From contig JAKPHF010000062.1 in NCBI GenBank assembly GCA_029550525.1, forward strand, positions 186,001-250,000: 64,000 bases of DNA, in the 5' to 3' direction. The notes below the pieces were generated by a model. The model was given only the letters and a program-made list of their open reading frames with translations. It did not search any database and had not been told where the DNA came from. The DNA comes from Planctomycetota bacterium (GTDB lineage: Bacteria; Planctomycetota; Phycisphaerae; UBA1845; PWPN01). The position numbers and the translations under genes are program-made. Below, piece by piece: positions 23,712 to 36,109 of the stretch (its first letter is position 1; every line of letters starts with the position of its first letter).

Positions 23712-25712
23712 TCATTTGCCGGCCTGCACCGCGCCGGGCACGCCGGTATTGACCCGCCGAACGGCAAAGTCGTCGAAGTCGGCGCGGAAGGGAAAACCGT
23801 CTTTGTTTTGAGTTCGGCCGCGCAGCCAGACGCTGATGGCCCCGCTCTTGGTACGAACGGGCCCGCTGTCGAAGGGAACGAAGAGACTGTGGACCGACGG
23901 CACATTCGTCCAGCGAATGGTCTCAGCTTTCGGATCGGTGTCCTGACCGGTCACGTCGATGCCCACCTGGCAGACATGATCGAAGTCCACCGCGTACGAG
24001 CAGCGAACGCGCCCGGTGATCCGATAGGTGTCCAGATGCGTCAGTCCGCTCACCTTTTGCACGTACCCACCATCGGCCGGTTGTTGCGTGACCGATCCTC
24101 CCAGGACACGGAGAACCCGGTTAGTGCGCTCGGGCTCGTCGGCGATGTAGCGATGAACCGTGGCGGGCTCGATCGCGAACGGCTTCCAGGCCGCCGGCGC
24201 GCCGGACTCGTTCTCGCTTGCACCCAGCTCGCCCGACTCCATGTCGCCGTTGACCAACAGATTGACCGAGTCGACCGCCTGGTCCCAGTTCTCGACCACG
24301 TGCGCGTACTCGATGATCTGCATGTCGAGATCGAATCCGACATCCTGACCGTTCTTGAACGCCGTTCCTCGCTCGTACAATTCACCCGGCGCCTGGCGGT
24401 ACGGATTGAAACCCGGCTTCTCGTCGCTGATCATCCCCTTGATGTTCACCCAGCCATGCAGCGACGTGTAGTTCTCGATCGACTCGGCCTCGATCGCATA
24501 CGTCTCGCCCGGTTCGAGCGTCACCTCGCCCGGCGAGAAAACTGCGCCGAATGTTCCCCACGACGCATCGCCGGTAAAGATGCCCTCGCCGATGGCGATC
24601 TTCTCGATACCGACGATCGGCCCGTCGGGACCGCCTCGGCGCACGCGCATGGCCACCCGCTGCCGATGGATGCCGGGCTGCGTTCCGCCTGTGCCCGCGT
24701 ACAGGACCACCGCCGCCAGCCCGCGGCCTCGAGCCACGTAGGTCTGACTCCATCGCTTGGAGAAGCCCGCAAATTCGCCGAATTGCTTCTGGATATGCTT
24801 GTTGTACGGGATAAGCAGCCCGTCGCCGTCGCCTGCGATGTACATCCAGAGTTGCCGGGCCACGAAACCCGCTTGCCCGTCCTTGTCGATCCGATAGCAG
24901 GACTGCGGCTGCTCGACCGCCCGCCAGAACATCTGGAACCCGTTGCCCGCCGTCGCGACGGCAAGACGCAGCGCGTACGTCTCGCCGGGGGTCGTGGGCA
25001 CTTCGCCCGAGTTCCAGGCGGCCGACCACTCGTAGTTCTTTGCGCCGCCGCTATCGACTTCGAGCACCGGCACCGTCGGACCGATCTGCTCCCACTGGTC
25101 CGGCGTTCCTGAACCCTTGCGGTGGACTGAAACCAGGAGCGTCTGACTGCCGGGGCCCGCGCCGTCGATACCGTCATGGACGAGTCTGAAGCCCACGCTG
25201 GTCACACCGGTGCCTTTGGCTTCGAACAGTTGGTAATAGGCCGCTGCCGGCTTGTTGTCCCAGGCTTCCATGTCGAACATCGCGTAATAGGAGCTGGGTA
25301 TCACCTTGCGATCGATCGTATCGCCATCGAACGTGTAAACGTTCGTGAACAGCGTCGGGCGAATGAACTTGGAGGGACCGGTGAACAGGAGCGTGTATCG
25401 GCCCGCGCTGCCGCTCATGTAGTACCAGCCGGCGGGTGCCATCTCCCATGTGCCGTGAGACAGGGCCTGACTCATCGAGCCTTCAAGGCTCGCGAAACAA
25501 CGAACCATGGGCAGCGGAAAGATCTCCGGCGAGTCGCCCGGCCGATTGGGACCGAAGTAATCTTCGGCCAGCCCCGTGTTGGCCGGCATGGCCCCGGCAA
25601 CCTCGGGCGTCTTGGGCATCCAGACACGGCCCGTGAACCGGACCTGGGCACTCGCCGCCCCACAAAACAGAAATGAGATGACCAACAGACGCGCAGCAAA
25701 ACAGTGACTCAC
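23712..25712 (-). CDS. Large secreted protein, carbohydrate-binding-like C-terminus, unknown function
   Basis: 666 residues from a GTG at 25712, which has GAGGAG seven bases upstream and starts exactly at a signal peptide (RLLVISFLFCGAASAQ). No catalytic motif is recognised. Much of the protein is beta-rich. From about residue 510 the segment SVNLLVNGDMESG begins a jelly-roll like CBM4/CBM9 domains that ends with RADFDDFAVRR. Family CBMs of this kind bind glucans or other glycans. It follows the secreted gene at 25889 on the same strand, 176 bases after its stop. Confidence 0.75.
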   Translation of the reverse strand: MSHCFAARLLVISFLFCGAASAQVRFTGRVWMPKTPEVAGAMPANTGLAEDYFGPNRPGDSPEIFPLPMVRCFASLEGSMSQALSHGTWEMAPAGWYYMSGSAGRYTLLFTGPSKFIRPTLFTNVYTFDGDTIDRKVIPSSYYAMFDMEAWDNKPAAAYYQLFEAKGTGVTSVGFRLVHDGIDGAGPGSQTLLVSVHRKGSGTPDQWEQIGPTVPVLEVDSGGAKNYEWSAAWNSGEVPTTPGETYALRLAVATAGNGFQMFWRAVEQPQSCYRIDKDGQAGFVARQLWMYIAGDGDGLLIPYNKHIQKQFGEFAGFSKRWSQTYVARGRGLAAVVLYAGTGGTQPGIHRQRVAMRVRRGGPDGPIVGIEKIAIGEGIFTGDASWGTFGAVFSPGEVTLEPGETYAIEAESIENYTSLHGWVNIKGMISDEKPGFNPYRQAPGELYERGTAFKNGQDVGFDLDMQIIEYAHVVENWDQAVDSVNLLVNGDMESGELGASENESGAPAAWKPFAIEPATVHRYIADEPERTNRVLRVLGGSVTQQPADGGYVQKVSGLTHLDTYRITGRVRCSYAVDFDHVCQVGIDVTGQDTDPKAETIRWTNVPSVHSLFVPFDSGPVRTKSGAISVWLRGRTQNKDGFPFRADFDDFAVRRVNTGVPGAVQAGK

Positions 25713-25888
25713 GGCAGTTCTCCTCTTTTGCCAATACCGTCTATCGACGCGCCCTGAAGATAACGGGCCGGAAGTCTGTTTGCACGCCTGAAAGGCTTTA
25801 CCCGGGCACTTTTTTCGATTTGGGATCGCCGGGCTTGCCCGGCTTGCCCCGACCAACTCAGGCCCGCCGGGCGGCGGCTCACATCGAC

Positions 25889-27568
25889 TCAGCGGGCAGC
25901 CATCTCGAAACGGATCGTACCCGTGTCGTCGGCTCGGATGAGAATGCCGTTCCGGCCGGCCGCGCTCTCGATCGTGCCCGCCGCGCAGCGCAACCGGTAA
26001 GCAAAACCGTTGTGCAAATACTCGACGCTGTCCGCGGCGACACGTTGGATGGGAACGGACTTGCCCGGACTCCAGCTCAGCTCGAGCCCCCACTCCGTCC
26101 GCGCCGTCACGCCCTGCAGCCGGCAGGTGAGCCGGGCCGGCTCGCAGCGGATACCGAGTTCCCCGCCGCCTGGGGCCGATACGGCAATGAGCAGCGCGTC
26201 GGGATCGCTGACCGTCACGCGGCACGTGGACGGTTGATCACCGGTCAACGGTCTGCGCGTGCCGTCCGCACCGAGCAGGACCGGCCGAAGCCCCGCGCGG
26301 TGATCCGGCGAACTCCAGTTGAAGCCATCCACCACGGGCAACGTATCGTACGTGCACGCATGCGTGGTCACGTTCTTTTCCAGGTAGCGTTCGACATAAT
26401 CCTCGTCGAACAGGTGCAGATCGCGAATGCGACAGCCGCCCTGCTCGACCAGCAGGTTCATGCGATAGAACCGGCTGTTGTACCAGATGCTCTGACGGCC
26501 TTCGTTCTTCCAGTCGGTGAGCGCGGACACCGACGTGGCCGGCGTGTGCGGGAACGTGCGGCGGAACCACTCGCCGGAAGCGCTCAGTGTCTCGACGCGA
26601 ATACGGCCCGCCCGCGACCATTCGGCCAGGAGGCGCATCTGATCGGTCAACCCCTTGGACATGTCGGGCCAGCCGAACGAGTTTTCCTGCCCGACCTGGG
26701 CGTAGCCGAAGCCGAGTGAGGGCGTCGCGAAGTTCACGTTGAAGAACCAGCGCACCCAGTCGGGATTGCCGCCTGCCTGCGGGTAGACCGGCTCGAGCGA
26801 TACCACGCCCTGGGCAGCTTCGCCGAGACCGTGGTCGTACTGGTAGATGGGATCGCTGCCGAGCATGCGAAAGACGGGCACGTTCAGTTGCCGCTCAGCG
26901 CTTTGAGCGGGCATGAACGCGTTGCGACGACTGGGATAATACGCCTGGTTCCAATAGCCGCCCCACAACGTGTAGCCGTCGGTGCCCACCTGGTCTTTGC
27001 AAATGCACGCCGCAACAATGCCGTACTTGTCGGCCAGATAGTTCAATGTGTGCGCGTCGATTAACCAGCAGCCGACCGACCGCGGCCACCGGCCGAACGC
27101 CGCACGAAAGCGCTCCATATACACGTCGATCAACTTTTCTCGCTGGGCCGGCGTGTATCCCACCGTGAAGCCCACGTCGGTGTGCCAGTCCCAGGGGAAC
27201 CGCCCCCGCCACGTCAGCCCGGCCGCCTCCACCTGCGGCTGCACCACCTCCAGCCACGCACCGATCTCGTCCGTCTCGCGCAACTCGCGGCGAAGCAATT
27301 CCACGAAGCGATCCTGCACCAGCGCGTCGTACTGGATCAGAAACGTCACCGGCAGGCCGTACTCGCGGGCCAGCCGAATCTGCTGCACCACCGGCTCGTA
27401 CAGGTCCACCTGCACCCGCGGCTCGACCCCGCGAATAAAGTTGACCACGTTGACCACCCCCGACCCGCCCTCCGCCGGCCGCGTTCCACTCGCCACCGCC
27501 ATGCTGGCGGCAAGCACAGTTGACACCACCGAGAATCCGATCCGTCTGAATTGAAAACGCCATCGCAT
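25889..27568 (-). CDS. Secreted protein with polysaccharide-deacetylase/GH57-like fold, unknown substrate
   Basis: 559 residues from the ATG at 27568 (GGAGGG nine bases upstream). Signal peptide 1-25 (VVSTVLAASMAVASG). The N-terminal half, from VVNVVNFIRGVEPRVQVDLY to GCWLIDAHTLNYLADKYGI, resembles NodB-like/DUF3863-type (beta/alpha) barrels: a conserved Asp-Ala-His, an Arg-Gly-Val-Glu start and WDWHTDVGFTVGYT. The C-terminal third is beta-rich. I cannot name the reaction. It is grouped with carbohydrate genes and exported, so glycan modification is likely. Confidence 0.7.
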   Translation of the reverse strand: MRWRFQFRRIGFSVVSTVLAASMAVASGTRPAEGGSGVVNVVNFIRGVEPRVQVDLYEPVVQQIRLAREYGLPVTFLIQYDALVQDRFVELLRRELRETDEIGAWLEVVQPQVEAAGLTWRGRFPWDWHTDVGFTVGYTPAQREKLIDVYMERFRAAFGRWPRSVGCWLIDAHTLNYLADKYGIVAACICKDQVGTDGYTLWGGYWNQAYYPSRRNAFMPAQSAERQLNVPVFRMLGSDPIYQYDHGLGEAAQGVVSLEPVYPQAGGNPDWVRWFFNVNFATPSLGFGYAQVGQENSFGWPDMSKGLTDQMRLLAEWSRAGRIRVETLSASGEWFRRTFPHTPATSVSALTDWKNEGRQSIWYNSRFYRMNLLVEQGGCRIRDLHLFDEDYVERYLEKNVTTHACTYDTLPVVDGFNWSSPDHRAGLRPVLLGADGTRRPLTGDQPSTCRVTVSDPDALLIAVSAPGGGELGIRCEPARLTCRLQGVTARTEWGLELSWSPGKSVPIQRVAADSVEYLHNGFAYRLRCAAGTIESAAGRNGILIRADDTGTIRFEMAAR

Positions 27569-27749
27569 TTTGCGTGTACCCTCCGCTGCACGCCGGTCAG
27601 TCGGGACTGTCGCCGTCGCACAGTATGCCGGGCATAACGTTCGCTCGCAATTCCGTATCAAACAAATCGCGACCGTGGGGAGCGGCAGACGCTCCCACAC
27701 GGTCGCGCAACGGTCACGAATAGCGGTTATGGGCGGGCGATGATCGCGA

Positions 27750-28628
27750 TCACTTCACGCCCAGATCGGCCTTGACCTTGTTGAAGTACTCGACACACTG
27801 GGCCACGTCGGCCTGATTGTTCTCCATGTTGTGTTCATACTCGATCGAAAACACGCCGGCAAAGCCCATTTTCTGCACGGCGGCCAGTAGATCCTTCATG
27901 GGCACCACGCCCGTGCCGTATGGAACGTCGTGCGCGTCAGGGCCGATCTTGTTCACGTCCTTGAGGTGCATGCTCACCAGCCGCCCGCGATACTTGCGAA
28001 TGGCTTCCACGCCGTCCAAGCCGGAGCGAGCCCAATGGCCGTTGTCGGCACAGCAACCGATCCAGTTGCTGCAACCTTCCAGCGCCTTCATGACCTCGTC
28101 CGGATTCCAGTAAGTGTACTCGGGCCTCTTGGGATCTTTCGCGTGGTTATGGATGGCCACCTTGACCTTGTACTCCTGAGCAAGCTTGTCGAGCATGGGC
28201 AAATTCTTGGGGTCGGGCTCGCTAACGATGTACTCGATGCCCATGTCCTTGCAAAACGCAAAGACCGGCCGGGCGGCCGCTTCGTCTTTCAACTCGTGAA
28301 AATAGTATCCAACGAGCTTGACGCCCGCATCCGCCAGTTTCTGCTTGACCTGCTTGCGAACGTCTTCGGCCAGCGTCGGCTCGAACTTCGTCTCGCCGTG
28401 CGCGGGGCTGATCTTTTGCCACGAATACGTCTCGACGTACTTGGCTTCCGCCTGCTTGCTCTTGTCGATGGCCTCGAACAGCGTGAAGCGGTTGAACGTG
28501 TACGTCATGACCGCCAGCCGCCACTCCTGATCGCCCTGCCGATTGCGTTGCGCATCCTGCGCCCACAGCGTCGATCCGCCGATCGCAAACCCCAACCACG
28601 CAATGGCAAGCACGCTCTTATTCATCAT
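27750..28628 (-). CDS. Exported xylose-isomerase-like TIM barrel (sugar phosphate isomerase/epimerase family)
   Basis: 292 residues. Signal peptide 1-23, then a TIM barrel of the AP-endonuclease 2/xylose-isomerase-like family. Probable metal ligands are the Glu of KYVETYSW, H of AIHNH, D and H of CADNGHW and E of SIEYEHN. It is strongly similar to the C-terminal domain of the next gene upstream (shared WRL-YTF-TLFEAIDK start and GFAGVFSIEYEH end), so the two are paralogues. The family includes epimerases and keto-sugar isomerases. It follows the fusion gene by 79 bases, which are filled by a heptamer array. SD AAGGGG. Confidence 0.88.
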   Translation of the reverse strand: MMNKSVLAIAWLGFAIGGSTLWAQDAQRNRQGDQEWRLAVMTYTFNRFTLFEAIDKSKQAEAKYVETYSWQKISPAHGETKFEPTLAEDVRKQVKQKLADAGVKLVGYYFHELKDEAAARPVFAFCKDMGIEYIVSEPDPKNLPMLDKLAQEYKVKVAIHNHAKDPKRPEYTYWNPDEVMKALEGCSNWIGCCADNGHWARSGLDGVEAIRKYRGRLVSMHLKDVNKIGPDAHDVPYGTGVVPMKDLLAAVQKMGFAGVFSIEYEHNMENNQADVAQCVEYFNKVKADLGVK

Positions 28629-28707: not shown

Positions 28708-30807
28708 TCACTTCTTCATCAACTCGCGCGTCTGCTCGTGGAAGTACTTGATACACTCGGCGATCTCCGGCATGGAGTTCAGCCAGTTGTGCTCATACTC
28801 GATCGAAAAGACGCCGGCGAACTTCTGACGGTTCAGTTCGGCCAGGATGGCTTTCATGTCCGCCTTGCCCGTTCCCCAGATCACATCGTGAGCCTCAGGC
28901 TTGCCGAACTCATTGAGGTCCTTGAGATGCGATGAGATGATCCGGCCTTCAAGCATGCGGATCGCTTCGACGGGATTGATCCCCGAGCGCATCCAGTGCC
29001 CGGTGTCGGCACAAGCCCCGATCCGCGGGTTGCGATTCTTGACCGCCTCGAGCACGACCTTGGGATCCCAGTAGATCGACGGCTTGGGGTGATTGTGGAC
29101 GGCCAGGTTGATGCCGTACTTCTGCGTGAGTGCGTCGATGGTGTCCCACATCTCCGGCGTGTTGGCCGGCTCGGAAACCAGCGTCTCGATGCCCATGTCG
29201 CGGGCGAACGCAAAGACCTTCTCCGCCTCGGCCGTGCTGAAGTTGACCACGCCGTAGTTCACCGCCTTGATGCCCGTCTGCTCGAGTTTGCGGCGAACCT
29301 GCTCGCGCACCTCAGGCGAGGCGTTGTGATCGAACCGCACGTTTGGCTGATCAGGGCTGAGCACCTGGCCCGGGAACAGCTCGATGTAATTGAGCCCCAG
29401 GGCCCGGGCCTTGTCGATGGCCTCGAACAGCGTGTACTTGTGGAACGTGTATGCCTGCGTCCCCAGACGCCACAGATTCGCCCCGCCCTCGCTCATCGGC
29501 AACTCCTTGACCAGGACCTTTCGAAATTCGACGTACGCCTCGCGGTTGTGCGAATCCTGCAACCCGATCAGGCCCGACCGCGGCCGGCCGGCCAAGCCCG
29601 GCACATATCGGCCGTCCACGTCCACGACCGGGATGTTGTCGCAGAACACCTTCAGGCGATAACCGTCGCAATGGATTTCGGTCTCATGCCAGACGTCCGC
29701 CCGCTCGTCCGGCCGCGGATTCACCGCCACCAGCCCATAGGGCGCGCCCGTGCAGTGCGGCAGATCGCGGTATTCGTTCGAAATCTGGATCTCCGTCCCA
29801 GTCACCCAGGGATACCCTTCCTCGAGGGCCCGCACGAAGATGCCGCTGTTGCCACCCAAGCCGACTCGCCACTGCACGCGAAGAATGAAGTTCTCGAACT
29901 GCCTGGGCACGTACATCCACTCGCCGCCTTTGTGGCTCTCACTGCGGATGACGCCTTCCGGAGTAACCCAGAACCCCTCGGGCTTGCCCTTGATCTTCCA
30001 ACCATCGAGGTTCTTGCCGTTGAACAGCGGTGTGAAACCTTCTTCCGAAGGATCGGGCAACGCACCCGCCAGCCAGCGGATCGACTGCATGAACAGCCGC
30101 CGCACGTTGGGATCGCGAAACTCGCTCGGCCCGTGACCCGGCTCCAGATAGACCACCGTGCTGTTGCGATACCGATGCGTCCAACCCAGCACCGGCATGG
30201 AATCGGGATTGTCGGTGGTCAGCAGCGGCGTGACGCCCTTGGCGATGGGCACGTTCCCGTACGTCTCGCCCACGATCTCAAAGTCGTCCATGAACCGCGT
30301 GATCGGGTGCGACTTGTCGGCGATCTTCACCTTGATCTTCTGATCGTGCTTGTACGTCGATCCGGGATGCCCGGCCTCGGGCTGCAGCACGTAGCGCCCG
30401 CCGATGATCTTCTCGGCCTCGGCCCACTCGGGGAAGATGGCGATGGCGTGGTGCACGACGAGCAGCGGCTTGCCGGCCTCGAGCAGATTCAACAGGTTCT
30501 GTCGATCCGGCTCGGCGAGCTTCTGGTTGAACCCGTACCAGAGCATCACGTCGTAGCTGTCGGCCTTGTTGGCCGCGAACATCGCCGCCGCCTCGGGCAG
30601 CTTCGCTTCCGTCCAGACGATGTCCGGCTGACCGTCGAACATCTGGAAGAACTCAGTGTGATCAAACGGGTGCCCACCCGTGACCACCATCACACGGATG
30701 ATCCGCTCGCGTCCGACGTTCGCCAAGTCGGCCGGATCGGCGGCAACGGCTTGCATGCAGAGCCCGGCCACCACGGCCGCGGCCGAAAATACTTGCGTGT
30801 GCGACAT
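28708..30807 (-). CDS. Three-domain fusion: ThuA + DUF1080 (3-keto-glycoside hydrolase type) + TIM-barrel isomerase
   Basis: 699 residues from the ATG at 30807 (AGGAAGGAAAG upstream). Signal peptide 1-22. Residues about 36-250 are ThuA-like (VTGGHPFDHTEFFQMF, LLVVHHAIAIFPEW, GRYVLQPEAGHPGSTYKHD, VVYLEPGHGPSEF). Residues about 257-434 are DUF1080 (FTPLFNGKNLDGWKIKG, NSGIFVRA, PDERADVWHETEI). Residues about 446-699 are a xylose-isomerase-like TIM barrel with NLAVHNHP, CADTGHW and FSIEYEHNW metal motifs. DUF1080 proteins have been linked to hydrolysis of 3-keto-glycosides and ThuA to sugar uptake or use. The secreted fusion would combine these steps. The frame is unbroken. Confidence 0.9.
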   Translation of the reverse strand: MSHTQVFSAAAVVAGLCMQAVAADPADLANVGRERIIRVMVVTGGHPFDHTEFFQMFDGQPDIVWTEAKLPEAAAMFAANKADSYDVMLWYGFNQKLAEPDRQNLLNLLEAGKPLLVVHHAIAIFPEWAEAEKIIGGRYVLQPEAGHPGSTYKHDQKIKVKIADKSHPITRFMDDFEIVGETYGNVPIAKGVTPLLTTDNPDSMPVLGWTHRYRNSTVVYLEPGHGPSEFRDPNVRRLFMQSIRWLAGALPDPSEEGFTPLFNGKNLDGWKIKGKPEGFWVTPEGVIRSESHKGGEWMYVPRQFENFILRVQWRVGLGGNSGIFVRALEEGYPWVTGTEIQISNEYRDLPHCTGAPYGLVAVNPRPDERADVWHETEIHCDGYRLKVFCDNIPVVDVDGRYVPGLAGRPRSGLIGLQDSHNREAYVEFRKVLVKELPMSEGGANLWRLGTQAYTFHKYTLFEAIDKARALGLNYIELFPGQVLSPDQPNVRFDHNASPEVREQVRRKLEQTGIKAVNYGVVNFSTAEAEKVFAFARDMGIETLVSEPANTPEMWDTIDALTQKYGINLAVHNHPKPSIYWDPKVVLEAVKNRNPRIGACADTGHWMRSGINPVEAIRMLEGRIISSHLKDLNEFGKPEAHDVIWGTGKADMKAILAELNRQKFAGVFSIEYEHNWLNSMPEIAECIKYFHEQTRELMKK

Positions 30808-30990: not shown

Positions 30991-31477
30991 GGTGGAGCAG
31001 GCGAGGCGATCGCTCGGCCGGAGTCATTCGGCCGGGAGGAAAGTCCGAACTGGATAGGGCACGGTGGTTGCTAACGGCAACCCGGCGCGAGCCGAGGGAA
31101 AGTGCCACAGAAAACATACCGCCGTTGACGCGTGACGATGTGCACTGACGTCCACAAAATCTGCCGGGTTGAACCTGGCGACGCGCCGCCCCACGAATCG
31201 CGGCGCTCTGGTCGCGTCAGTGTATGTTGTCACGCGTCAACGGTAAGGGTGAAAAGGTGCGGTAAGAGCGCACCGCGGCACGGGTGACCGTGCTGGCAGG
31301 GCAAACCCCACCGCCAGCAAGCCCAAATAGGCAGCCAGAGGCGGCCCGTCTCGTCACGAGCTGCGGGTAGGGTGCTCGAGCGGCCTGGCGACAGGTCGCC
31401 CAGATGAATGATCGCCGTCCGGCATCGTCCCTGCGACGCCGGATAACAGAATTCGGCTTATTCGCCGGCTCCACCCT
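30991..31477 (+). ncRNA. rnpB: RNase P RNA, bacterial type A, with a very long P12
   Basis: Catalytic RNA of RNase P, which trims tRNA 5' ends. The P1 strands GGTGGAGC (30991-30998) and GCTCCACC (31468-31475) pair. Conserved landmarks in order: GAGGAAAGTCCGAAC, ACAGAAAACATACCG, GGGTGAAAAGGTGCGGTAAG, AGCGCACCG, CAAATAGGCAG, GGGTAGGGTGCTCGAG, AGATGAATGATCGCC, ACAGAATTCGGCTTAT. P12 starts with CCGTTGACGCGTGAC (31122-31136), pairing exactly with GTCACGCGTCAACGG (31229-31243), and encloses 92 more bases with further stems (CACTGACG/CGTCAGTG). About 487 nt compared with 377 in E. coli. Confidence 0.97.
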
Positions 31478-31545: not shown

Positions 31546-31587
31546 CGCGCAGGCACGAAAACGTTATCTTTGTGCCTGCGCGTCTTT
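31546..31587 (+). terminator. Hairpin terminator after rnpB
   Basis: CGCGCAGGCAC (31546-31556) pairs exactly with GTGCCTGCGCG (31572-31582), followed by TCTTT. It lies between the end of RNase P RNA and the next gene. The T run is short, so some read-through is possible. Confidence 0.65.
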
Positions 31588-31619
31588 GTGGAGCGTTCAC
31601 TTTCAGGGAGCAACCTCAA

Positions 31620-33308
31620 ATGATTCCACTCCTCCACGCCGTTATTCTGGGGATCGTCCTGTCTGCATCCCCGTCAGTTGACGTGCAGGACACTCGCCTG
31701 ACGATCAAGACCGCGACAGTCGAAGTAGTGTTTGATGGCCCCGTGCTCACCAGCCTGCGTCCCGCCGGCAGCACCGTCGAGTTCATCCACCCGAACGCGT
31801 CGGGACCGGGCGTCGATCTGATGTACCTGGACTCGAGCACCGTCGGAACCGACAAGCAGCAGACCATCGCCGTTCGCAAGCTGTCGGATTTCGCCGCTCG
31901 CGTCGAGATCAGCGGCGCGGACACCGAACGGACGCTGACCATCGTGCCCGATCCCGACACGGGCGACATTCGGATCACGCCCGACGGCGTCTCTAATCGC
32001 CGCGGCCTGCGAGCCGTTCGCTGGACACTGGCGGCCCATCCGCAAGCCACCGCCATCCTGCCTTGCGTCAACGGCCTGGAGGTCCGCTCCGATCGGCCTC
32101 ATCCGCCCACCCGCCGTTTCCCTTGGCCGTTCGAATGGAACGCCCAACTGGCCATCCTGCAACAGGCTGACGCATCGGTGATGGTCCACTGTGAGGACCG
32201 GGCGTATCAGTTCAAGGCCCTCCACCTCATCCGCAGCGGCGACCGCGTGGATCTCGGCTTTGAATCCGAGCCGCCCGGCCCGCTTTGGGACAATCGCACT
32301 GCCGGCGGCATCGAATGGCGGCTCAACGCTTACCGGGGCGACTGGAAGACGCCCGCCACCCGTTACAGAAAATGGATGGAACACGCCTATGACCTTGCAG
32401 CGAAACGGCAGCACCGTCCGGCGTGGGTGAAAGACATCAAGTTCGTGCAGTGCTGGGCGGCGCCTGTCCCCGAGATGCTCGACGCACTGGCCGCCGTGCA
32501 CCCTCCGCACGAAACGCTCATCCACCTATCAGATTGGCGCACGGACAAGTACGACGTGAACTACCCCGAGTATACTCCGAGCGATCAAACACTGGCCTAC
32601 ATGGCCAAGGCACGCGAGATGGGCTTTCATGTCATGCCCCATTTCAACTACTACTGCGTGTGGTATCAGCACCCCTTCTATCAAAAGGTCCGTGACTTCC
32701 AACTGCGAACCGTCGATCAAAACCGGCCCGACGGCTGGCACTGGCCGCCCGAGACGCATAACTACACCCGCATGGCCTACATCCATCCCGGCTTCGGCGT
32801 CTGGCGCAACAAACTGATCGAGGTGGTGAGCGAAGCCTGCAGCAAGACCGGCACCGACGTCGCCTTCCTCGACCAGACCTTGTGCACCTGGAACACCGAC
32901 AACGGCCTCGTGCAGGGCATGAACACCATCGAAGGCATGCACAAGCTCCAGGAGCAACTCGCCGCCATCCACCCCGGGCTCGTGCTGGCCGGCGAAGGTC
33001 TGAACGAGATTTCGTTTCAATGGCAGTGCTTCGCCCAGGCCCACATTTTCGAGGGTTGGGGCAAGCTCGAGCAAAAGCACGTGGACGCCCAACACAGCAT
33101 CTGTCAGTTCCTCTGGGGCGACCACACCCGACTCATCGGCTATTACCATGTGAGCCCCGGCAACGAGGACTTCGACAAGGGCATCGCTACGTACGAACGT
33201 ATGGGCGCCCTGCCCACCATCGTAACCAACAACCCCAAGGATCTCCGCGAGCCCTCGGAGCTCACTCGGCGGATCCTCGACCGAGCGGCAGGAAGGGATA
33301 GAGAATGA
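31620..33308 (+). CDS. Secreted glycoside-hydrolase-like protein (TIM barrel, unclassified)
   Basis: 562 residues from the ATG at 31620 (AGGGAG upstream). Signal peptide about 1-18 (LHAVILGIVLSASPS). N-terminal beta-sandwich (about 20-250), then a TIM barrel from about residue 270 (WVKDIKFVQCWAAPVPEML). The barrel shows GFHVMPHFNYYCVW, VAFLDQTLCTW and LVLAGEGLNE; by position the Asp in FLDQ and Glu in GEGLNE are candidate catalytic residues. The layout matches DUF6259-like/GH-A or GH36-like proteins seen in planctomycetes, but I cannot place it in a numbered family. It stands alone on the plus strand. Confidence 0.75.
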   Translation: MIPLLHAVILGIVLSASPSVDVQDTRLTIKTATVEVVFDGPVLTSLRPAGSTVEFIHPNASGPGVDLMYLDSSTVGTDKQQTIAVRKLSDFAARVEISGADTERTLTIVPDPDTGDIRITPDGVSNRRGLRAVRWTLAAHPQATAILPCVNGLEVRSDRPHPPTRRFPWPFEWNAQLAILQQADASVMVHCEDRAYQFKALHLIRSGDRVDLGFESEPPGPLWDNRTAGGIEWRLNAYRGDWKTPATRYRKWMEHAYDLAAKRQHRPAWVKDIKFVQCWAAPVPEMLDALAAVHPPHETLIHLSDWRTDKYDVNYPEYTPSDQTLAYMAKAREMGFHVMPHFNYYCVWYQHPFYQKVRDFQLRTVDQNRPDGWHWPPETHNYTRMAYIHPGFGVWRNKLIEVVSEACSKTGTDVAFLDQTLCTWNTDNGLVQGMNTIEGMHKLQEQLAAIHPGLVLAGEGLNEISFQWQCFAQAHIFEGWGKLEQKHVDAQHSICQFLWGDHTRLIGYYHVSPGNEDFDKGIATYERMGALPTIVTNNPKDLREPSELTRRILDRAAGRDRE

Positions 33309-33419: not shown

Positions 33420-34511
33420 TCATCTGGCTGTTACGGCCACAGGCGGCTTGGGGACCATGAAAGTCGTCTGACATTGCAGGCAGGACGTCAGCTTGCCTCG
33501 CAGGGCAGCAGGCAGCACCAGCCGTTTGCTGCATTTGGGGCACAACACCGCAACCACTCCATCGGCTGCGGGAGCGGCGAGCGCACCGCCGGGCGACCCC
33601 GCAGGGGGGACGAGGAACGCGGTGGCACACTTCTCGCACCGATGAAGCTTGCCCCGCTGGTCGGCATTCATTTGATGCGAGTACCCACACTTGGGGCAAA
33701 GCACGCCGATTTTCACTGGGGCAGCCCGGCTAGGTGAGGCGCCAGTCGATGCCGTGGGCTGGGGCGGCAGCGCGTCCTTGGTGTTCATCTCCGCCCGAAA
33801 TTTATCCCGCTTGTGCTTCTCGACCCGTCGACGGCGGATTTCCCGCAATTGCCGCTCGCGCTCGGCAGCCCTCCGTTCCGCATCGTCGGGGAGCAGCCGC
33901 GCTTTTTGTTTGCCCCCCACCGCCTTCTCGTGGCAGTAGGCCAGCAGCAGTTCGAATTCCCGGCATTGGATCTGCCTCAAAACCGCCTCGCCGGCCGGCT
34001 TGATCTTCCCGGCACTAGCCTGCGCGAGTGCATCACAGAACAGGAAGGCTTCCCATCGCTGGTCCTGCTCGAGCATCTCCCGCAGCCGTCGTACACACGG
34101 ATCCGCCGCCGTCGCGCTGGCAGTCAAGGCATAGGCGGTCAGATCCTGGTAAATCGCGTGGTGTCCGCCGAGTTGTTTGAAGAGCTCTTTGGCTTTGTCA
34201 AAATGCCGGGCGTGCCGCTCGCACAGCCCCGTGAGGTACGCCCGCTCGGCGTCGCCGGCGACCTGGGCAAACATGGCGCAGTCGCCCGGCCAGCCCAACC
34301 ACAAATACAGCAGGGCCCGAACAGCCGCCCCCATCTTCTCGTCGGCCAGGCTTTCGCACCCGAACAGTTCCCGGTCCTCCGCCGCCTCCAGCCGTTTCCT
34401 GCCAACGCGATGGCCCTCGCCGATCCATGAGAGGCCGGGCAGCCCCGCACCGCGGAGGAGTACCAGCTTGGCCATTTCCGGCGAGAAATTTCCGAGATCC
34501 AGTCCGATCAT
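33420..34511 (-). CDS. Protein with two C-terminal zinc-ribbon motifs and coiled coil, unknown function
   Basis: 363 residues from the ATG at 34511 (GGAG upstream). The open frame continues upstream but has no family features there. The N-terminal two-thirds is helical, with an arginine/glutamate-rich coiled coil (RRAAERERQLREIRRRRVEKHKRD). Two similar ribbons end the protein: CPKCGYSHQM with RCEKC (about 270-297), and CPKCSKRLVL with SCLQC (about 322-350), each a C-x2-C pair about 20 residues apart like the MJ0042-type ribbons common in planctomycetes. No enzyme motif. It is divergent to the Gfo/Idh gene. Confidence 0.7.
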   Translation of the reverse strand: MIGLDLGNFSPEMAKLVLLRGAGLPGLSWIGEGHRVGRKRLEAAEDRELFGCESLADEKMGAAVRALLYLWLGWPGDCAMFAQVAGDAERAYLTGLCERHARHFDKAKELFKQLGGHHAIYQDLTAYALTASATAADPCVRRLREMLEQDQRWEAFLFCDALAQASAGKIKPAGEAVLRQIQCREFELLLAYCHEKAVGGKQKARLLPDDAERRAAERERQLREIRRRRVEKHKRDKFRAEMNTKDALPPQPTASTGASPSRAAPVKIGVLCPKCGYSHQMNADQRGKLHRCEKCATAFLVPPAGSPGGALAAPAADGVVAVLCPKCSKRLVLPAALRGKLTSCLQCQTTFMVPKPPVAVTAR

Positions 34512-34789
34512 CTGTTCGGGCTCCGCTTTTCCGCTCCAGATCCTCAATCGGCATATCGACCCGATCGGCGAAGGGCTGAATCTCCACGCCGCCACCCGTG
34601 CCCCCAAAGGGCAGCGGTAACGCAGGTTTTCCTTCCTAACCTGGCGCTTCGTTCCAGGTTCCAGGGCCGTGAGCTCTGGCGGAGGTGACATTTTCGGTCG
34701 TTCACGATACCCTGGGGGCTTTGCTCGGTTCTGCAGCATCACCCAACCCGCCGGTCGCCGCCTCGCGGGTTCACAAGCAAGGAGCAACG

Positions 34790-36109
34790 ATGGAAGGAAA
34801 CACTCGCAACACGCAATCGCCCAAACCGCTCGCTTCGACCTCAACCCGCCGGAGCTGGACCCGTAGAAAGTTCCTCGGGGCAACCGCCGGCACGCTGGCC
34901 GCGGCCGGAGTCGCCGCGCGGGCTCAGTCCGCCGCCAAGCCGGGGCGAATTCTCGGAGCCAACGACCGCATCCGCATGGGCATCATCGGGTCCGGCGGCA
35001 TGGGCCGCTATCACGTGGTAAGCATGCTCGACAACTTCAAGGACGTCGAGTTCATCGCGATCTGCGACGTGAGCGAGGCCGCCCGCAACGAGGCCGCTAA
35101 GCTTGCCGCCGACCGCGGCAGCACCAACTGCAAGCTCTTCAACGAGCACGAGAAGCTCCTCGAGATGAAAGAGATCGACGGCGTGGTCATCGGCAGCCCC
35201 GACCACTGGCATGCCCGCCACCTCATCGACACGGTCAACGCCGGCAAAGACGCCTACTGTGAAAAGCCCATGTCCTGGTCGATCGAGCAGGGCCTCGAGA
35301 TGATCAAGGCCGTGCGAGCCACCGACCGCATCGTGCAAATCGGCATGCAACGCCGCAGTACGCCGCCGGTCATGGAAGCCAAGAAGATCATCGATAGTGG
35401 CTTCCTCGGCGAGGTGAGTCTCGTGCGGGCTCAGTGGTACTGGCACATGCAGGAAACGCTCGATCCCGCCGCGGTCAAGGTGAACGGCAAGGTCGATTGG
35501 GATCGATTCCAGGCCCCCGTGCCTCCCGAGAAGCGCCGCCCGTTCGACCCCGTACGGTACGCCCGCTGGCGATATTTCTGGGACTATTCCGGCGGAAACA
35601 TGACCGATCAGGGTACGCACCTGATGGACGTGATCCAGTGGTTCTTCAATGACAGCAAGCCGCCGTTGGCGGCTCAGGAGGCGGGCGAAGTCTACCAGCT
35701 CAAGGGCTACGAGACGCCCGACACGTTCTGCGCCATCTTCGAATATCCCAAGTTCATGGCCACCTGGACGCTGACCTACACCAACAACTGGACCAACGGC
35801 TGGTCCATCATCGTCCACGGCAGCAAGGGCAGCCTCGAACTGGATGACTTCGGGGCCCGGTTCCTGGATAACAACCACTGGATACCGGATTGGCGTACCA
35901 AAGCTCCGCCGCCCAAGCACGAAATCAAGGGCGGCCTGAGGGTCGATCTGCACGAGAAGAACTTCTTCGACTGCATGCGCTCGCGCAAAGAGCCCAATGC
36001 TCCGGTCGAGATCGGTCATCAGGCGGTCACCGCACTGCACCTGGCCAACGCCGCTCATCACGCCCGGCGCCGCGTGACCCTTGATCCGCAGACTTACAAG
36101 GTGAGCTGA
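34790..36109 (+). CDS. Tat-exported Gfo/Idh/MocA family oxidoreductase
   Basis: 439 residues from the ATG at 34790 (AAGGAG upstream). A twin-arginine signal (TRRKFLGATAGTLAAAG, about 24-40) is followed by the NAD(P)-binding domain (GIIGSGGMGRYH, 65-75) and the family motif E158-K159-P160. The C-terminal alpha/beta domain has RWRYFWDYSGGNMTDQGTH, the usual planctomycete segment with candidate active-site His. These enzymes oxidise or reduce sugars and cyclitols, often at C-3, and when exported are thought to act on periplasmic sugars. It is followed by a good intrinsic terminator, so it is probably monocistronic. Confidence 0.93.
   Translation: MEGNTRNTQSPKPLASTSTRRSWTRRKFLGATAGTLAAAGVAARAQSAAKPGRILGANDRIRMGIIGSGGMGRYHVVSMLDNFKDVEFIAICDVSEAARNEAAKLAADRGSTNCKLFNEHEKLLEMKEIDGVVIGSPDHWHARHLIDTVNAGKDAYCEKPMSWSIEQGLEMIKAVRATDRIVQIGMQRRSTPPVMEAKKIIDSGFLGEVSLVRAQWYWHMQETLDPAAVKVNGKVDWDRFQAPVPPEKRRPFDPVRYARWRYFWDYSGGNMTDQGTHLMDVIQWFFNDSKPPLAAQEAGEVYQLKGYETPDTFCAIFEYPKFMATWTLTYTNNWTNGWSIIVHGSKGSLELDDFGARFLDNNHWIPDWRTKAPPPKHEIKGGLRVDLHEKNFFDCMRSRKEPNAPVEIGHQAVTALHLANAAHHARRRVTLDPQTYKVS

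Follow-up and report, generated by a model that had tools for sequence, protein, structure and literature searches.

A planctomycete gene joining ThuA, DUF1080 and xylose-isomerase-like TIM-barrel domains and its possible place in glycoside cleavage via 3-keto sugars

Introduction

Sugar cleavage via 3-keto intermediates has been recognised as widespread only recently, and the enzymes of such routes are often named isomerase, hydrolase or domain of unknown function. In a 64,000-nucleotide stretch of DNA from a Planctomycetota bacterium (positions 186,001 to 250,000 of contig JAKPHF010000062.1, assembly GCA_029550525.1; hereafter, the window), one gene joins a ThuA domain, a DUF1080 domain and a TIM barrel, raising the question of whether this chain is a genuine arrangement and, if so, which reactions its domains might perform in succession. 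The chain was found to be intact and to recur within its family, and is read here, with modest confidence and largely from its sequence, as an exported multi-domain enzyme that would break glycosidic bonds in sugars oxidised at C3 not by classical hydrolysis but by oxidation, elimination and hydration. As its parts are already known, the fusion is an uncommon rearrangement of such parts and not a new kind of system.

Results

Translation of positions 28708-30807 (minus strand) yields a protein of 699 amino acids with no internal stop. The ATG at 30807 was preferred over the start of a longer mechanical open reading frame (ORF) running to 30966, since AGGAAGG lies upstream of the former. The product comprises, in order, a signal-peptide-like start, ThuA, DUF1080 (3-keto-disaccharide hydrolase) and a xylose-isomerase-like TIM barrel. 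In Pfam, these were recognised as ThuA (PF06283; residues 67-245; E 1.8e-23; 84.4 bits against a cut-off of 33.4), 3keto-disac_hyd (PF06439; residues 257-434; E 5.5e-35; 121.6 bits against a gathering cut-off of 26.8) and AP_endonuc_2 (PF01261; residues 464-682; E 5.4e-20, above the curated cut-off). The next gene after the fusion (27750-28628, minus strand) also matches AP_endonuc_2 (E 2e-20), with its product sharing 46% identity with residues 440-695 of the fusion and the same active-site residues. Two claims of a first-pass annotation of this DNA, namely that three domains are joined in a single chain with an export-like start and that a second copy of the barrel follows, were thus borne out. 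Judged by eye, the N-termini of the fusion (MSHTQVFSAAAVVAGLCMQAVA/AD) and of the stand-alone barrel (MMNKSVLAIAWLGFAIGGSTLWA/QD) are Sec-like, and all five triple fusions described below begin with a hydrophobic segment; the chain appears to be exported.

An AlphaFold model of the fusion returned a mean predicted local distance difference test (pLDDT) value of 88, with stretches below 50 confined to residues 1-32, the start with its probable signal peptide, and residues 438-444, the linker to the barrel. The predicted template modelling (pTM) score was 0.65 and, therefore, the model does not fix how the domains are placed relative to one another. In four of the five triple fusions, the linker, otherwise variable in sequence, contains AAGGAG followed after 6-9 bases by ATG. 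This ATG could be an internal start, or AAGGAG could simply provide Lys-Glu codons.

How widespread the domain order is, a check suggested by the first-pass annotation, was considered in searches with the whole fusion that covered 61 near genomes (matches listed best first), 397 genomes of the class, 392 of the phylum and 13 of the same family, these sets overlapping. In the class and phylum searches, the two best candidates per genome were scored, at E limits of 1e-60 and 1e-70, such that a very divergent triple fusion could escape. This revealed the complete chain in five of the 13 family genomes, namely, G000 (the window genome), G001, G006, G008 and G010, with the other four fusions sharing 73, 62, 57 and 53% identity with that of the window over their full length. 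Outside the family, no triple fusion was seen among the matches listed for the near genomes or the two best candidates per class or phylum genome. A scan of named genomes returned the complete fusion at two of 43 loci (L001 and L002; ORFs of 723 and 889 amino acids), evidently the G001 and G008 fusions, and nearly all named loci matched by the fusion belong to Planctomycetota metagenome assemblies. The source contig measures 635 kb, in a draft genome of 5.8 Mb with an estimated contamination of 5.89%. Given the full-length relatives in four other genomes, at 53-73% identity, the fusion was taken to be neither an assembly chimera nor a product of chance.

Unfused and partly fused forms were also encountered. 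ThuA-DUF1080 without a barrel is found in four of the 13 family genomes (G004, G005, G011 and G012; by Pfam in the first three) and DUF1080-TIM without ThuA in G009 (Pfam), the Pfam run having included the window and eight relatives of the fusion, without L052. The claim that the three domains usually occur in separate proteins accordingly holds for the triple fusion but not for pairs of domains, given the ThuA-DUF1080 fusions and the TIM-DUF1080 fusions described below. Nor was a clean split seen in all relatives, an outcome that had been named as speaking against the proposed route: the domains are split in some and fused in five genomes. In G011, two separate, adjacent TIM genes lie after a ThuA-DUF1080 gene. 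In G004 and G012, some 3 kb separate ThuA-DUF1080 from genes related (at 67%, about 60% and 75% identity) to three window genes at 38.9-44.6 kb, here read as a putative pyruvate dehydrogenase set, which in the window lie some 8 kb from the fusion. These arrangements suggest that the triple fusion arose when adjacent genes, in much the same genomic location, were joined. Gene absence is weak evidence in G001, G006, G002 and G011, which are 77, 72, 84 and 55% complete, respectively.

In a tree of ThuA-DUF1080 sequences, the five triple fusions grouped weakly (70/76). In a TIM-barrel tree, the five fused barrels fell in three places and a single clade was rejected by the approximately unbiased (AU) test (p 0.013), an optimistic value given that the hypothesis was chosen after the tree was seen. 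A single origin of the triple fusion was, therefore, not upheld, the pattern being compatible with separate origins, splitting or replacement.

The opposite order, TIM-DUF1080, is the label of 40 of the 75 barrels in the tree, and a DUF1080 domain was found after the barrel in all 11 opposite-order candidates checked by Pfam. For five of the 40, a single-sequence search detected no DUF1080; four belong to the 11 checked by Pfam and the fifth is L012. Examples include L022, a Verrucomicrobia record (Pfam), and L006, a Caldithrix record (single-sequence search only). Domains found fused in either order usually work together. As a separate observation, opposite-order fusions L005, L007, L015, L028, L074 and L022 contain two DUF1080 stretches behind the barrel. 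In L085 (10849-13167, minus strand), an AP_endonuc_2 barrel precedes a sulfatase in one ORF of 773 amino acids, with an alpha-L-fucosidase and a Gfo gene nearby.

The chemistry of the barrel was next considered by comparison with AtOGE, a proven O-glycoside beta-eliminase that holds a metal, likely Mn2+, on His132, Asp163, His189 and, weakly, Glu233, and that needs His134; in C-glycoside eliminases (CGEs), Glu replaces His132 as metal ligand (PMC10628242). In a phmmer search, the fused barrel matched 8bvk (E 2.9e-7; about 100 residues aligned), presumed to be AtOGE from the agreement of its residue numbering with that paper. In the alignment, H571, H573, D601 and H627 of the fusion fall on H132, H134, D163 and H189, while E670 lies after strand 8 of the fusion model, outside the aligned region. 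The fused barrel thus carries counterparts of the three metal-binding residues (His132, Asp163 and His189) and the catalytic His134 of an AtOGE-type eliminase and, with His571 as its strand-5 ligand, lacks the Glu expected of a CGE alpha-subunit. Across 75 of 75 barrels compared, the two of the window among them, these five positions do not vary. The set excludes L044-L046, which duplicate the window, L001 and L002, counts identical barrels once and omits matches over 200 or fewer barrel positions, or no better than 1e-30.

Elimination and/or hydration is more likely for the barrel than isomerisation, judging by this His-x-His/Asp/His/Glu site, as in AtOGE, and by known eliminase-hydratase pairs. 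LgdB1 and LgdB2, 'sugar phosphate isomerase' proteins, are successive eliminase and hydratase (PMC7676230), and AtOGE and AtHYD have been proposed to act likewise, AtHYD on preliminary evidence (PMC10628242); 8ro4 (AtHYD) bears the title hydratase in the PDB. Of the periplasmic 3-keto-sugar route put forward in the first-pass annotation, the 3-keto-glycoside route itself stands as the best-supported reading, together with the export-like start, whereas isomerisation as its last step was not supported as proposed, the site appearing to fit elimination or hydration better.

Among solved DUF1080 structures matched by the fusion model in Foldseek, those with a stated function are 8rr2 and 9fbe, titled '3-keto-glycoside eliminase/hydratase', and 8tda and 8v31, titled '3-keto-2-hydroxy-glucal-hydratase'; the entries ranked above these are mostly 'putative'. 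8rr2 contains a QDHG motif, and 9fbe, which holds bound 2-hydroxy-3-keto-glucal, has Asn in place of its His, suggesting a catalytic role for that His. Among the opposite-order proteins, nine present QDHG and five more QYHG or QFHG, with many DUF1080 rows lying outside the search pattern and being counted neither way. DUF1080 has been proposed to be a xanthan-backbone glycosidase in Thermogutta, from genomic and transcriptomic data (PMC5673643), and a 3'-ketolactose hydrolase, the family being linked to the use of 3-keto-disaccharides (PMC9007349).

In the ThuA domain, G44-G45-H46, H119-H120, H167, E181 and H225 are invariant in 10 of 10 aligned rows and, for this reason, the domain could be active. 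A sequence search with ThuA gave a single weak solved match, and Foldseek with the whole fusion model listed the ThuA-like 4e5v. The thuAB genes have been linked to 3-keto-disaccharides, as cited second hand in PMC4765114.

The 3-keto-glycoside on which such a chain would act calls for an oxidoreductase. The Gfo/Idh/MocA gene at 34790, with a twin-arginine translocation (Tat)-like start, finds its best solved match in DgpA, an oxidoreductase of C-glycoside breakdown. Between it and the fusion lie a ribonuclease P (RNase P) RNA gene and ORFs at 31572-33308 (plus strand) and 33420-34883 (minus strand), the latter overlapping the first bases of the Gfo gene. With 43 matches to one Gfo query in the source genome, the chance of some Gfo lying within 4 kb of the fusion is about 6%. 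A single operon was rejected, as the two genes are on opposite strands with the RNase P gene in between, and as the conserved Gfo belongs to another subfamily; the gene at 34790 is probably not a conserved partner of the fusion.

In G001 and G006, a member of that other subfamily is the immediate, divergently oriented neighbour of the fusion; in G010, 3.6 kb with other ORFs separate the two; in the window genome, the orthologue of the G001 protein (61% identity) is on contig C82. The exported Gfo partner of the first-pass annotation hence survives in part: a Tat-like Gfo does exist at 34790, but the conserved one, adjacent or close to the fusion in three relatives, is of another subfamily and lies elsewhere in this genome. 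Full-length orthologues of the G001 Gfo (at least 378 bits) were found in four of the five triple-fusion genomes (G001, G006, G010 and the window genome) as compared to none of the eight other family members, where scores reached at most 252 bits (one-sided Fisher p 0.007, or 0.018 without G001, the source of the query, with relatedness and incomplete genomes uncorrected). The nearest solved matches of this linked Gfo are the dehydrogenases 8tdf and 8tdh. For three of its members, the C82 copy not being among them, the best NCBIfam match is glycoside 3-dehydrogenase BT_2158 (NF058561; 100.9, 137.9 and 117.5 bits), far below the equivalog cut-off of 750.

Discussion

In the oxidation-elimination-hydration route favored here, a Tat-exported Gfo/Idh/MocA dehydrogenase would first form a 3-keto-glycoside. 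By elimination of the aglycone (or of a sugar as leaving group), the metal-dependent TIM barrel would then produce 2-hydroxy-3-keto-glucal, which DUF1080 and/or the second TIM barrel would hydrate to a free 3-keto-sugar, and ThuA would bind or convert the keto-sugar. In this scheme, we infer export (by eye), every activity, the division of elimination and hydration between the barrels, the substrate and the step taken by ThuA. A more elaborate version, which we regard as doubtful, would have a single exported chain serve as 3-keto-glycoside eliminase, 2-hydroxy-3-keto-glucal hydratase and, through ThuA, the catalyst of a third step, with the glucal being passed between domains, with a dedicated Tat-exported dehydrogenase subfamily lacking the EKP lysine, and with an internal start that could release the barrel in the cytoplasm.

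The EKP lysine is important in Gfo/Idh/MocA dehydrogenases, and GH109 glycosidases also depart from EKP. The latter act by transient oxidation and elimination (PMC10628242). Several observations weigh against the favored route. The lysine is missing from all four linked Gfo proteins (EPP, EAP, ETP and ESP) and present in their best solved matches; G008 contains the fusion but no clear orthologue of the linked Gfo (242 bits); and the window-genome copy on C82 lies beside genes with no evident sugar link, the nameable ones of nine ORFs examined by Pfam including no evident sugar genes and three giving no or weak matches. In the DUF1080 domain, the His of QDHG is moved by one place (QDSH or QDAH) in 10 of 10 members of the window's subfamily (QDSHN in the window), such that the 8rr2-type His is absent from its usual position, this DUF1080 may work differently from the 8rr2 type and its activity is less sure than that of the barrel. 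Mutants deleted of BT2157 and BT2158 grew normally on raffinose-family oligosaccharides (PMC11501099). In structural comparison of the barrel, moreover, the top-ranking 3p6l (Z 38.0) and 3lmz (Z 32.4) are followed by 'isomerase Art22' (8z1i, Z 28.0), epimerases score near 25, on par with CGEs at 24.3, and NCBIfam reports a weak resemblance to IolE; structural comparison alone cannot separate eliminase from isomerase or epimerase barrels. As in the version of the first-pass annotation, DUF1080 might instead cleave the 3-keto-glycoside and the barrel isomerise or epimerise the released keto-sugar, which we consider rather unlikely. Such a division of labor would agree with the scores of Art22, also a weak sequence match (E 6.8e-4), of D-tagatose 3-epimerase and UlaE (25.5) and of xylose isomerase (about 24), with weak NCBIfam matches to L-ribulose-5-phosphate 3-epimerase and with the ties of DUF1080 proteins to 3-keto-disaccharide use (PMC9007349). 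Yet, 3p6l and 3lmz are isomerases by annotation only, judging by their titles, strand 5 supplies His as its first ligand and another His at the next position but one, the AtOGE pattern (a comparison that did not extend to Art22), and every NCBIfam isomerase or epimerase cut-off was missed widely (IolE, 30.1 against 290 bits; NF009688, 23.5 against 317), as were those of other AP_endonuc_2 models.

The displaced His, the abundance of DUF1080 in planctomycetes and the proposed cleavage of the xanthan backbone (PMC5673643) would also suit a protein acting on polysaccharides, with DUF1080 as a binding module or classical glycosidase and ThuA and TIM as accessories. This is improbable, however, with four solved DUF1080 entries being 3-keto-sugar eliminase/hydratases by PDB title (others listed being mostly 'putative') and with the fusion of DUF1080 to the same TIM family in both orders fitting consecutive steps. 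The existence of these opposite-order fusions, together with barrel active-site residues that are intact in five genomes down to 53% identity, further argues against a chance gene fusion without joint function, in which a stop codon between neighbours was lost and the chain tolerated. The separate ThuA-DUF1080, TIM and TIM neighbours of G011 and the scatter of the five fused barrels in the TIM tree (AU p 0.013) are compatible with such an event, which nonetheless seems very improbable.

Known systems offer partial parallels to the fusion. The AtOGE/AtHYD operon of Agrobacterium tumefaciens likewise encodes two 'sugar phosphate isomerases' and a Gfo oxidoreductase, with a proposed order of oxidation, elimination, hydration and reduction, and its eliminase shares the metal and catalytic His set of the fused barrel; these are, however, separate proteins, 'ThuA' does not appear and no mention of DUF1080 was seen in the available part of the paper, whereas the window chain looks exported (PMC10628242). 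In the LgdA-LgdB1-LgdB2-LgdC levoglucosan pathway of Bacillus smithii, one of the paired 'isomerases' eliminates 3-keto-levoglucosan and the other hydrates 2-hydroxy-3-keto-glucal; here too the proteins are separate, the substrate is an anhydrosugar and the available part of the paper showed no mention of DUF1080 or ThuA (PMC7676230). CGEs (DgpB-DgpC, PuCGE) have the TIM fold (7exz, Z 24.3) and share the catalytic His of AtOGE but have Glu where AtOGE and the fused barrel have His (PMC10628242); they also contain a second subunit, and DgpA is the best match of the window Gfo at 34790. The Bacteroides BT2156-BT2160 cluster, with 3osd (BT2157), 8tda, 8rr2 and 9fbe, has the DUF1080 fold in common with the fusion, with QDHG in 8rr2 where the window has QDSH; we infer that 8tda, 8rr2 and 9fbe are also BT2157, which has been called a 3-ketotrehalose hydrolase (PMC9007349), and NCBIfam names the BT_2158 family glycoside 3-dehydrogenase. 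In Agrobacterium and rhizobia, the ThuA domain is again found in an operon tied to 3-keto disaccharides, there as a separate protein (PMC4765114). A literature search returned no paper with both 'ThuA' and 'DUF1080', most subscription journals lying outside its reach and the three-domain arrangement not being sought otherwise.

The joining of ThuA, DUF1080 and TIM in one chain, with TIM-DUF1080 in the reverse order in other proteins, points to the domains that act in succession, places ThuA where its part can be tested and provides a candidate single-chain enzyme for the 3-keto route. A firm assignment would aid the reading of many genomes, the source genome alone containing 15 DUF1080 matches besides those to the Gfo query.

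Other features of the locus

Table 1. Features of the fusion and its surroundings; positions are those of the window unless a locus is named.
Feature	Position	Strand	Basis
ThuA-DUF1080-TIM fusion gene, 699 amino acids	28708..30807	-	translation, Pfam
Probable Sec signal peptide, fusion residues 1-22	30742..30807	-	by eye
ThuA domain, about residues 36-250	30058..30702	-	Pfam, alignment
DUF1080 / 3-keto-disaccharide hydrolase domain, residues 257-436, motif Q417-D-S-H420	29500..30039	-	Pfam, motif comparison
TIM barrel, residues 444-699; predicted metal/catalytic set H571, H573, D601, H627, E670	28711..29478	-	Pfam, alignment
Linker with AAGGAG, 6 bases and in-frame ATG (Met438)	29494..29508	-	sequence
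Stand-alone TIM-barrel paralogue, signal-like start, 292 amino acids	27750..28628	-	Pfam, alignment
Gfo/Idh/MocA oxidoreductase, twin-arginine-like start, EKP kept	34790..36109	+	Pfam, motif
Linked Tat-like Gfo subfamily members	L096:8621-10201 (-); L001:575-2056; L077:3907-5334; L078:11294-12730		sequence comparison
Bacterial class A RNase P RNA, 483 bases	30994..31476	+	

Downstream of the paralogue, the long ORFs at 23712-26225 and 25889-27700 (both minus strand) matched nothing in Pfam or NCBIfam at E 0.001. The ORF at 31572-33308 (plus strand), between the RNase P and Gfo genes, encodes a DUF6259 protein with a possible signal peptide, judged by eye. An RNase P RNA gene also adjoins the unfused locus of G011, there reversed relative to the gene; simple conserved synteny was therefore rejected and adjacency alone is claimed. 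The window RNase P RNA is about 100 bases longer than the 377-base copy in L086.

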